The notes under the pieces: generated by a model
What the model was told of the DNA's origin: nothing
What the model saw: the letters and a program-made list of their open reading frames with translations, nothing else
The model's database searches: none
DNA from: Nitrospira sp.
Lineage (GTDB): Bacteria; Nitrospirota; Nitrospiria; Nitrospirales; Nitrospiraceae
Length of the DNA stretch: 49,122 bases
Assembly (NCBI GenBank): GCA_005116965.1
Contig: SWDG01000027.1
Location: forward strand, 135,550-184,671
Reading direction: 5' to 3'
Program-made: the position numbers and the translations under genes
Shown here: positions 20,333-33,110 of the stretch, one piece after another
Layout of the letters: each line of letters opens with the position of its first letter
Position numbering within the stretch: the stretch's first letter is position 1

Positions 20333-21745
20333 TGTAGATAGCAAGTTAAGTTGTCCGGTTTTTGTAGCACATGATCTGTCCGGTATTCGTTCTCCCAGAA
20401 TTTCAGGGGGACACCGAAATTCTTTCGCGCGCAGTTGCCCGAGGAGCGACGATCGGGCGGTTGCGTGACCGCAGGGTCGAGTCCTTCTGGTGTCTGCCCC
20501 CAGCCGTGGAATCACTCAGTTGGCCCTCCGCATTGTAGCGCGCCAAGCACCGCGGGCCATGAAACACCGCCAAGCTCCCATCCGGATACGCATGGACCCG
20601 GACCGTGGCCTTCACATAATGGAACCGGTGCGCATCCGGTGGAATCTGCAAACTCCGGCCTTGATACCGCACCGTATTGTCGTTGGCGACCACCCGCTCC
20701 TCCTGCACACAGAGTATCTCCGCAAGGTTCGTCCCGATCCATGGGACGAAGGCCGTGCCCGGTTCGGCCGCCGCCATCGCAAACCGCTGATTGTAGACAG
20801 GGAGAAACGTGGTGAGCAGATACTGGTTCGCCGCCGCCATGTCCGTAATCCCGGCGAGCGCCAATTCTTTGGGCAACCGATCTTGGAGCGTGCGGAAGGT
20901 GCGCTCCGACCGCCCCCGCGCCTCTGGCGAATAGGCGGGGATCAACGTGATGCCTAACTGCTGCAAGGCCCGATGCACCTGCGTCGGCCGGCTCTTATTC
21001 ACCTTCCCTCCGGCCGCGTCAGTGTACCAGTAGTGCGATCCACGATCCGTATAGAGAGAGCTAAACAGGCCTGTGGTCTCAATGACGTCCCGCAGCCCTC
21101 GGAAGCTGCTCATGGTGCCTTCTTCGTCGACGAAGAAGGCCGAATACAGCTCGCTGGTCGCATCGTCCATGGTCACAATGAGATCCCACTGACAGCCGGG
21201 CACCCACTCATGAGTCGAGCCATCTTGATGCAGCATCATCCCGGGTAACGGTTTGCGCGGTCGCTTCTTGCGATGCGCGCCGCGCCGCGGGGCACGGGGA
21301 ACATGGCCCGCCGCTTGGAGCCGATTCTTGATCCAGGTATAGGACCGCCTCCCGCCATGCTCCGTCTGCCAACGCTCATAGAAGTGTTTCACCGTCCAGC
21401 CGGTATAGCGACTCTCATACAGCGTCACCATCTGCAAGACTTCGTCGACCGGGACCGCGCGGGCCGACGCGTGGCCCAGCCGCCGATCCTGCAAGCCCGC
21501 CGTCCCCTCAGCTTCATAGCGATCACCCCAGCGGCGAAACGTCCGCTCCGTGACGCCCAGCATCTCCGCGGCCTCCGCCATCGTCAGTTCCCGCCGTTGT
21601 CGCCGCTCGTACAGCTCCTCAAATCGCATCTGTCGTACCTCCTGTAGGACGGTTGCCCGTGTCATCGTGGCCCTCCTTCGGAGGACCACCCTAAACCGGA
21701 CACTTCTCGTGCTACAAAAACCGGACAGATGATGTGCTAGCTACA
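20333..21745 (-). mobile_element. Complete insertion sequence, IS1202/ISNCY-like, 24-bp direct repeats
   Basis: About 1.41 kb. Both ends start TGTAG(A/C)TAGC, and both contain TGTCCGGTTTTTGTAGCAC followed by a second TGTCCGGT, forming imperfect inverted ends of about 50 bases with two internal repeat units. One gene, on the minus strand, fills the element. The 24-bp direct repeat is much longer than the 4-15 bp usual for IS481-like elements and fits the long repeats reported for the IS1202 group. A truncated relative starts this window. Confidence 0.85.
20403..21665 (-). CDS. DDE (rve-type) transposase of the IS
   Basis: A 420-residue transposase. The N-terminus has a helix-turn-helix (LTMAEAAEMLGVTERTFRRW) and a second helical DNA-binding segment. 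The integrase-like core follows: first catalytic Asp in MMLHQDGSTHEWVPG, second in LYTDRGSHYW, Glu in AYSPEARGRSERTFRTL. ATG 21665 is used because AAGGAGGG precedes it; an ATG-less extension to 21689 overlaps the terminal repeat. The gene looks intact, so the element may be active. Confidence 0.9.
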   Translation of the reverse strand: MTRATVLQEVRQMRFEELYERRQRRELTMAEAAEMLGVTERTFRRWGDRYEAEGTAGLQDRRLGHASARAVPVDEVLQMVTLYESRYTGWTVKHFYERWQTEHGGRRSYTWIKNRLQAAGHVPRAPRRGAHRKKRPRKPLPGMMLHQDGSTHEWVPGCQWDLIVTMDDATSELYSAFFVDEEGTMSSFRGLRDVIETTGLFSSLYTDRGSHYWYTDAAGGKVNKSRPTQVHRALQQLGITLIPAYSPEARGRSERTFRTLQDRLPKELALAGITDMAAANQYLLTTFLPVYNQRFAMAAAEPGTAFVPWIGTNLAEILCVQEERVVANDNTVRYQGRSLQIPPDAHRFHYVKATVRVHAYPDGSLAVFHGPRCLARYNAEGQLSDSTAGGRHQKDSTLRSRNRPIVAPRATARERISVSP

Positions 21746-26162: not shown

Positions 26163-26371
26163 GAGAAGACCCTGAAAGGGAGAAAAATCGAATGACGTCT
26201 ACAATCCCTGTTCTTCCTCCACTCATCCTCTGAGTTCGTTTCTCTGCACTCGTTCTGGCTGGTCAGCACACCGTCTTGTTCGGCAATACAGATCTCAGCG
26301 CGTGGCTGTCCGGCGCATCGTCAACGTTGCCTCATGTTCAACATCGCTGAGTACCTCATGTCACAAACCTT

Positions 26372-26431
26372 GAAATCAGTTGCCAGAAACCCCATCTCGC
26401 GATACCCCTAGTCTAGACGCTGGTTTCTGGC
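26372..26431 (+). promoter_or_regulatory. Leader stem-loop, copy 1 (before the mini-protein)
   Basis: gaaatcagttgcc is followed by a perfect 10-bp inverted repeat: GCCAGAAACC (26382-26391) pairs with GGTTTCTGGC (26422-26431). The same arrangement recurs 325 bases downstream. It ends 41 bases before the mini-protein ATG. It could be a structured RNA leader or a protein-binding region. Confidence 0.6.
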
Positions 26432-26471
26432 GTTGAAAAAGGTACAACAATCAATCGTGGGGAGGATGTGC

Positions 26472-26540
26472 ATGCATTTCGTCGTGGTATCAGCTATCGC
26501 GGTGGGGTTGGTATATTTGTTGTGGGAGATCCGGCCATAA
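26472..26540 (+). CDS. 22-residue membrane mini-protein
   Basis: ATG 26472 follows GGGGAGG by 7 bases and opens a 22-codon frame, MHFVVVSAIAVGLVYLLWEI then RP and a stop: almost one membrane helix. Its start aligns with the signal peptide of the gene at 26798 (MRFILVSAVASALV), which also has the same kind of leader. A strong stem-loop terminator follows 57 bases after the stop, so the unit has its own leader, ribosome site and terminator. It may be a genuine small membrane protein or the remains of a duplicated secreted-protein gene. Confidence 0.5.
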   Translation: MHFVVVSAIAVGLVYLLWEIRP

Positions 26541-26596
26541 AGCTTGCTTCCATATAAAAGCATCGAGTGTGCTCTTTTGAGATGCATGCTCGTACG

Positions 26597-26635
26597 CGGC
26601 CTCCAGGGGACAGCCTACTGGAGGCCGTGGTTTTT
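26597..26635 (+). terminator. Rho-independent terminator
   Basis: CGGCCTCCAG pairs perfectly with CTGGAGGCCG, followed by TGG and TTTTT. It lies after the mini-protein and before the second leader copy. Confidence 0.8.
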
Positions 26636-26696
26636 GTGCCCCTTTTCTTGCCTTGCCTTTACGTATGTCTCGCAAGAGTCCTGAGTTTAAAACCGC

Positions 26697-26760
26697 GAAA
26701 TCAGTTGCCGGAAAACTTGTCTCACGATAGCTCTAGACCGGGCGCTGGTTTCCGCGGCGC
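26697..26760 (+). promoter_or_regulatory. Leader stem-loop, copy 2 (before the Lys-rich secreted protein)
   Basis: gaaatcagttgcc (26697-26709) is identical to copy 1. The stem GCCGGAAA pairs with TTTCC...GGC (749-758) with a two-base bulge. One A-T pair of copy 1 (385/428) is G-C here (710/753), so the pairing is kept while the bases change. It ends 38 bases before the ATG at 26798. Confidence 0.55.
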
Positions 26761-26797
26761 CCACGCTAACACAACCTATTTCAGAGGAGAGTTATCC

Positions 26798-27166
26798 ATG
26801 CGGTTCATCCTTGTATCGGCAGTGGCATCCGCACTCGTCATCGGAGGTGGTTCCTTGGTTATGGCGGACGAGCTCACGAACCTTGGTTCCGACTTGAAGC
26901 AGGACATGGGTTCAATGGCCAGTGAGGCTAAGGGTGACATGGCGTCTGACCATGAGCAGATGAAGGAGAACTTCAAAGCCAAGAAAGATCAGATGAAGGA
27001 TGAGATGAAGGCCAAACGAGCGAAGATGAAATCCGAGATGAAAGCGAAGCGAGATGCGCTCAAGGCCGAGAGGCAGGAGATGAAGAGTACCGCAAAGGCA
27101 AAGAACGGTAAGGCCCAGAGGAAGGCCAAGGAAGCGGTTGAATCCACGACGTCTGGACCGTACTAA
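26798..27166 (+). CDS. Secreted Lys/Met-rich coiled-coil protein
   Basis: A 122-residue protein; ATG 26798 follows AGAGGAG by 7 bases. The signal peptide (MRFILVSAVASALVIGGGSL ...) is cleaved probably after VMA. The mature part is almost wholly helical and charged with repeated MK.EMKAKR.KMKSEMKAKR-like units (about residues 50-100). Such Lys/Met-rich exported proteins resemble metal-, nucleic-acid- or stress-related proteins, but no family is certain. It shares its leader and start sequence with the mini-protein upstream. Confidence 0.75.
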   Translation: MRFILVSAVASALVIGGGSLVMADELTNLGSDLKQDMGSMASEAKGDMASDHEQMKENFKAKKDQMKDEMKAKRAKMKSEMKAKRDALKAERQEMKSTAKAKNGKAQRKAKEAVESTTSGPY

Positions 27167-27390: not shown

Positions 27391-27696
27391 ATGCAAGATT
27401 ACTCAGTGTATTATGGGAGCGCCTGTATCATTTTCTCCCTCTATATCCTCATCAAGGGGTTCATTGCGGCGTCCAGGCAACGTAGCGAACATCATTCCAC
27501 GACGCTTGTTCCAGCCTACATCTATGGAATCGTGGCGTCGATTCTGCTGACTCTTGGCCTGGGATTCTTCAAGCCGACTTTGCCCTGGTGGGGGTACCGA
27601 TTGATTTTCCCTGGCACCACGATGCTCTTTCCCGCCATCATTTATCTGATCGGCCGCCGTCCACTGAAGCCCAACCTTGATCGAGTCGACGCGTAG
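27391..27696 (+). CDS. Small three-helix membrane protein
   Basis: A 101-residue protein with three hydrophobic segments (SACIIFSLYILIKGFIAA, AYIYGIVASILLTLGLGFF, IFPGTTMLFPAIIYLIG) and a short basic tail. ATG 27391 follows GGTCGGAG. No family is recognised. The gene converges with the lipoprotein gene downstream, with 39 bases between. Confidence 0.7.
   Translation: MQDYSVYYGSACIIFSLYILIKGFIAASRQRSEHHSTTLVPAYIYGIVASILLTLGLGFFKPTLPWWGYRLIFPGTTMLFPAIIYLIGRRPLKPNLDRVDA

Positions 27697-31960: not shown

Positions 31961-33110
<1,150 letters not shown>

Follow-up and report, generated by a model that had tools for sequence, protein, structure and literature searches.

The window analyzed here, i.e., the whole stretch of 49,122 nucleotides from a Nitrospira sp. 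contig (SWDG01000027.1), carries a leader sequence in two copies, each of which is followed by a gene. The 13-base sequence gaaatcagttgcc occurs at 26372-26384 and again at 26697-26709, an offset of exactly 325 bases, and the two copies are alike over about 80 bases of leader, with the similarity extending into both coding starts. A preliminary description of this DNA had reported the duplicated leader, and this observation holds; the same leader pair is present in 44 genomes, which rules out a chance duplication. The first leader precedes a 22-codon mini-gene (unit 1) and the second precedes a gene for an exported protein (unit 2). The features of the locus are as follows.

26362-26411, + strand: conserved 5′ block of leader copy 1, interpreted as a promoter (TTGCCA 26380-26385, 17 bp, TACCCC 26403-26408)
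26416-26434, + strand: copy 1, local hairpin in the RNA, GACGCTGG-TTT-CTGGCGTT (fold -7.8 kcal/mol; covariation in the alignment of 83 leaders)
26460-26466, + strand: mini-gene ribosome-binding site GGGAGGA (GGGAGG invariant in a 12-species alignment)
26472-26540, + strand: 22-codon mini-gene, MHFVVVSAIAVGLVYLLWEIRP, with one predicted transmembrane helix (44 genomes, pN/pS 0.23)
26595-26635, + strand: rho-independent terminator of unit 1, CGCGGCCTCCAGGGG-ACAGC-CTACTGGAGGCCGTG followed by GTTTTT (stem 26595-26629)
26687-26736, + strand: leader copy 2, promoter-like block (TTGCCG 26705-26710, 17 bp, TAGCTC 26728-26733)
26740-26762, + strand: predicted hairpin of copy 2, GGGCGCTG-GTTTCCG-CGGCGCCC (fold -17.0 kcal/mol)
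26798-27166, + strand: gene for a 122-aa exported Lys/Met/Glu-rich protein, frame start MRFILVSAVASALV (39 genomes with copy 2 before an intact ORF)

Unit 1 has its own ribosome site and its own terminator, as had been proposed; the terminator hairpin, completed by its T-run, folds at -28.4 kcal/mol (z -4.7), and a stem of the form GGCCTCCAG lies about 53 nt past the stop codon in most unit-1 orthologues.

A DNA search of 39 relatives recovered the locus in 14, and these belong to one genus. A covariance model (R1), built from 23 leaders, located the leader in 44 of 79 Nitrospira genomes, as a rule with exactly two strong matches in each; copy 2 was the second match in the genome of the window (77.4 bits). 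One leader copy always lay 5′ of the 22-codon ORF and the other 5′ of the gene for an exported Lys-rich protein, the former ORF being present in 44 genomes and the latter intact in 39. Named records place the positive genomes in Nitrospira, and the mini-protein profile, when run against 395 genomes of the phylum, gave full-length matches in Nitrospira only. The remaining 35 Nitrospira genomes are without the unit pair, and the pair is thus not essential to the genus. Two genomes from two other, related genera (G102 and G149) have the leader before the exported-protein gene only, with no unit 1. Off the locus and across most other genera R1 gave weak matches (E 0.01-0.1; 3e-4 in G228), which were taken as chance because they had neither a leader-like context nor a following ORF of either kind, and a REP-like mobile element was rejected since there are merely two leader copies per genome.

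The 22-codon ORF is a genuine gene under purifying selection as a protein, given its constant length and its pattern of substitution. It has 22 codons and no indel in 44 of 44 genomes (42 distinct DNA sequences) and varies mostly at third codon positions, with a mean pN of 0.118 and a mean pS of 0.519, i.e., the ratio of 0.23 listed above; the two alternative frames give ratios of 0.60 and 2.77. In the encoded proteins M1, H2, L13, L16, L17 and W18 are invariant, residues 3-17 are all hydrophobic or small, and position 21 is Arg or Lys in every case. The suggestion that unit 1 may make a tiny membrane peptide is therefore borne out as regards the gene, and the membrane location is predicted; we infer that the product is a single-pass inner-membrane protein. 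Position 2, which is Arg in 31 of 39 unit-2 proteins, is His in all 44 mini-proteins, and this replacement together with Arg/Lys21 favors, by the positive-inside rule, an orientation with the C-terminus probably inside the cell, as is reported for YohP (PMC12719787). Searched up to an E-value of 1, Pfam and NCBIfam gave no match to the mini-protein and thus none to CydX, KdpF or another curated small subunit, although this is a weak test for a protein of 22 residues. PDB sequence searches with the unit-1 and unit-2 proteins gave no member-level match, and a literature search for Nitrospira start sites or small proteins found nothing relevant. A short, hydrophobic protein with a single predicted helix, its own terminator and a structured leader might also be a membrane-depolarizing toxin of a type I toxin-antitoxin system, like Ibs or TisB. 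We consider this highly improbable, as 44 genomes carry the gene once, at a conserved site and under strong purifying selection, its leader is common to an exported-protein gene, and a crude scan of either strand called no antisense promoter-like site.

The unit-2 protein consists of a signal peptide ending in ADE followed by 11-residue repeats; it is Lys-rich and ranges from 110 to 144 aa across genomes. Lengths of 110, 122, 133 and 144 aa were seen, i.e., steps of about 11 residues, as repeats resembling MKSEMKxKRDQ were gained or lost. It resembles apolipoprotein-like and LEA-like proteins in its Lys/Glu/Met-rich 11-residue helical repeats, but differs from the apolipoprotein-like family PF01442 in being bacterial and exported and in scoring under the curated cut-off (E 0.0027, 17.9 bits vs. 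a cut-off of 90); no member-level match was obtained in Pfam or NCBIfam. Distant homologues are widespread in the bacterial family without the Nitrospira leader, which a full-sensitivity search of 20 such loci did not find.

The arrangement of the two units among genomes showed that each is autonomous. They lie 1.4-4.8 kb apart in G039, G044, G046, G054, G062, G077 and G091. In the six genomes in which the gap was read, it holds transposase-like ORFs (G039, G044, G062 and G091) or other genes (G046 and G054), and both units are intact despite the insertions; in G003 they are on different contigs. Since the units are separated yet both intact, each leader serves its own gene. Copy 2 has decayed in G012, G018, G075 and G083 with the mini-gene persisting, and in G052 copy 1 alone was found, together with the mini-gene. 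By eye, an ORF for a RAYT-like (Y1-type) transposase, starting with MARPLRIEYPGAFYHVT or a close variant, is present between the units in G039, G062 and G091 (L076, L096, L099), and its position is possibly a favored insertion site.

Unit 1 has a single origin. In a tree of the leader plus first codons, the unit-1 sequences formed one clade with support of 100/98, and 100% of the bootstrap trees counted a single change; support for the root separating the two units was weak (69/90). Gene conversion between the copies was rejected by this tree. Codons 2-15 had a DNA identity of 0.49 between the units vs. 0.32 in codon-shuffled controls (mean BLOSUM z 3.8), and the mini-protein profile also matched signal peptides of unit 2 in three genomes (G003, G013 and G039). 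Together with the related genera having the exported-protein unit only, these data lead us to conclude that unit 1 arose within this Nitrospira clade when the leader was duplicated along with its 5′ UTR and the start of the signal peptide.

Conservation of the leader begins abruptly at about column 4 of the alignment, and pairing does not account for the upstream block. TTG (columns 19-21) is present in 83 of 83 leaders and TA (columns 42-43) in 82 of 83, and the spacer between TTGNNN and TA is 17 bp in 80 leaders and 16 bp in 3, which agrees with a sigma-70-type arrangement of a TTG -35 element, a TA -10 element and a spacer of about 17 bp. The commonest -10 hexamers, TACCCC, TAGCCC and TACCCG, lack the T at the last position and are not TATAAT-like; TACCCC and TAGCCC are poor for sigma-70, and a consensus scan called no sigma-70 site. 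In G102 and G149 the spacer sequence differs and TTG, spacing, TA and hairpin are kept. Several of the distant unit-2 homologues, aligned by eye, carry TTGGCA-N17-TATTGA or TTGGCA-N17-TACTCC some 90-100 bases 5′ of the start codon. The simplest reading of these sequences is that the upstream block is a promoter with an unusual -10 element. From this, the transcript is predicted to start at about 26414-26417, and the hairpin, which begins at 26416, would form the 5′ end of the mRNA.

The upstream block of copy 1 also contains CTTGAAAT at 26369-26376, and CTTGAAA-N14-CCCCATCT at 26369-26397 could be read as a heat-shock promoter recognized by an RpoH-like sigma factor, in which case both units would be heat-shock genes. 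Copy 1 agrees with the E. coli sigma-32 consensus (CTTGAAA-N11-16-CCCCATnT) at 14 of 14 specified positions, the next-best site in the window reaching 12, and the genome carries an RpoH-like sigma factor beside groES. Nevertheless, we judge a heat-shock promoter unlikely and did not uphold it, as the perfect match is confined to copy 1 of the window: the CCCC box is lost in orthologues (ACCCATCT, ACCGATCT, CTCGATCT), copy 2 scores just 8 of 14, the groES and HSP20 genes of this genome have no such site above background, the element is absent in other genera, and it has been lost from three unit-2 leaders with the gene intact. The RpoH-like sigma gene (G000:C6:674559-675941) adjoins groES and scores 275 bits, which is below the proteobacterial cut-off. 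Copy 2 in G010 (L005), G001 (L006) and G016 (L103) is missing columns 1-15 and directly follows the unit-1 terminator, yet the gene is intact; this loss amounts to a natural deletion experiment on the putative promoter and counts somewhat against the reading that we favor.

Downstream of the promoter-like block, covariation supports a local RNA hairpin in the leader. Its stem (columns 56-63 with 67-74) is paired at 89% over 83 leaders and has double-sided changes at seven of eight pairs, amounting to 34 cells vs. 14.3 ± 6.5 in shuffled alignments, with 0 of 500 shuffles as high; these counts refer to sequences and not to independent events. RNAalifold chose the core of this stem unprompted. 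The hairpin of L090 (unit 1 of G093) is fully re-paired as CGTGCTGG-TTT-CCAGCACG (z -4.4), that of L087 (unit 2 of G090) is another, independent, fully re-paired case, and the hairpin of copy 2 in the window underwent a one-base deletion followed by new pairing. The preliminary description had also proposed a structured RNA leader with covariation, and this is correct for the leader, although the stem it named was the wrong one. That longer stem, GCCAGAAACC...GGTTTCTGGC, is perfect in copy 1, is broken in copy 2 by the one-base deletion and is not conserved among relatives. Across the alignment it joins columns 21-30 with 62-71 and is paired at 77% overall, with double changes at four pairs in 10 cells vs. 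3.8 and 8.8 in shuffles, which is no excess. The pair said to covary from A-T to G-C is mismatched in 50 of 82 leaders; among unit-1 leaders it is T-C or A-C in 38 of 43 and A-T in one, the window's own. The changes that break pairing thus concern the long stem and not the leader itself. In addition, the 5′ arm of the long stem is inside the putative promoter spacer and would not be transcribed.

Two other readings of this region were weighed. If the whole conserved stretch were transcribed, it could be a riboswitch-like or attenuator leader in which two alternative stems have one 3′ arm in common; both stems do use the same arm, GGTTTCYGGC, pairing of the long stem reaches 80% among unit-2 leaders, and many unpaired positions are invariant. 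We find this quite unlikely, considering that the long stem shows no covariation and carries the mismatched key pair, that G102 and G149 keep the local hairpin with the 5′ arm of the long stem gone, that an Rfam search of the region returned no match near the gathering score and hence no family, and that the leader serves just two genes per genome. Alternatively, the hairpin might be a DNA operator for a dimeric regulator and not an RNA structure, as had been suggested from the sequence; the near-palindrome CGCYGG-N3-CCRGCG is directly 3′ of the promoter, a position at which repressor binding is conceivable. An operator is, however, not favored and in our estimate an unlikely explanation: G-U type pairs, which break the dyad symmetry, are frequent (61-69 is U-G in 37 of 82 leaders and 62-68 is G-U in 25 of 82), both sides change to other letters, and copy 2 of the window retains its hairpin with new letters after a deletion.

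Taken with the RNA hairpin, the evidence makes it probable that the locus comprises two autonomous, co-regulated units with a common leader, of which unit 1 was derived from unit 2 and now encodes a membrane mini-protein. Each leader would be a TTGNNN-17 bp-TA promoter whose transcript opens with the hairpin, at most a few bases from its 5′ end, and runs on through a long 5′ UTR to a strong ribosome site. The ancestral unit would be unit 2, its product being an exported Lys-rich helical repeat protein. The duplicated signal peptide would have lost its cleavage site, exchanged its N-terminal Arg for the invariant His and gained the C-terminal W-[EQ]-x-[RK]-[PAS]. The outcome would be an inner-membrane protein of 22 residues that spans the membrane once and is made together with the exported protein. 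For the 5′ hairpin, the most likely role is protection of the short mRNAs, by analogy with the 5′ UTR stem-loops that stabilize the mRNAs of ompA in E. coli, vacA in Helicobacter and recA in Acinetobacter (PMC7509114). Like these, it is short, is predicted at or near the 5′ end and lies about 26 nt from the ribosome site; unlike them, it goes with a single promoter block and with just two genes per genome.

Small single-pass membrane proteins of enterobacteria, e.g., YohP (27 aa), AcrZ, MgtS and CydX, usually bind larger membrane proteins and are often stress-induced, as reviewed in PMC12719787. The mini-protein is like those described there in being very short with one predicted helix and a positive C-terminal end, and its gene, like that of YohP, is unlinked to a larger partner gene. 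In contrast to them, it has 22 residues, is confined to one genus, showed no sequence relation and has a leader and N-terminus in common with an exported protein, which points to an origin from a signal peptide. Based on the analogy with these proteins and on the co-regulation, the mini-protein is most likely a helix that attaches to a larger protein of the inner membrane and modulates it; it would act through helix-helix contact with such a protein or complex, in the condition in which the exported protein is made. A more specific proposal is tentative, and we would sooner expect it to fail than to hold: an orphan membrane protein, born from a signal-peptide duplication with loss of cleavage and inversion of the charge bias, forms a two-gene regulon with its parent and serves an envelope or respiratory complex of nitrifying Nitrospira as regulator or subunit, possibly with the His as a ligand.

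Gene callers generally overlook genes of this length, so that a 22-codon gene under clear selection in 44 genomes of Nitrospira, an ecologically important nitrifier, firmly extends a class that is poorly charted. The locus also offers a readable case of the birth of a small membrane protein, as the putative parent leader and signal peptide are adjacent to it in most genomes and stand alone in related genera. Furthermore, by tying the membrane peptide and the exported repeat protein to one condition, the common leader opens the function to experimental test. With respect to the surroundings, the window encodes a 101-aa membrane-like protein (MQDYSVYYG...) at 27391-27696, 3′ of unit 2; it had no Pfam or NCBIfam match exceeding its cut-off and is found downstream in L007 (G012) too. 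Transposase-like ORFs flank the region at 20403-21689 (- strand) and 32114-33088 (+ strand).
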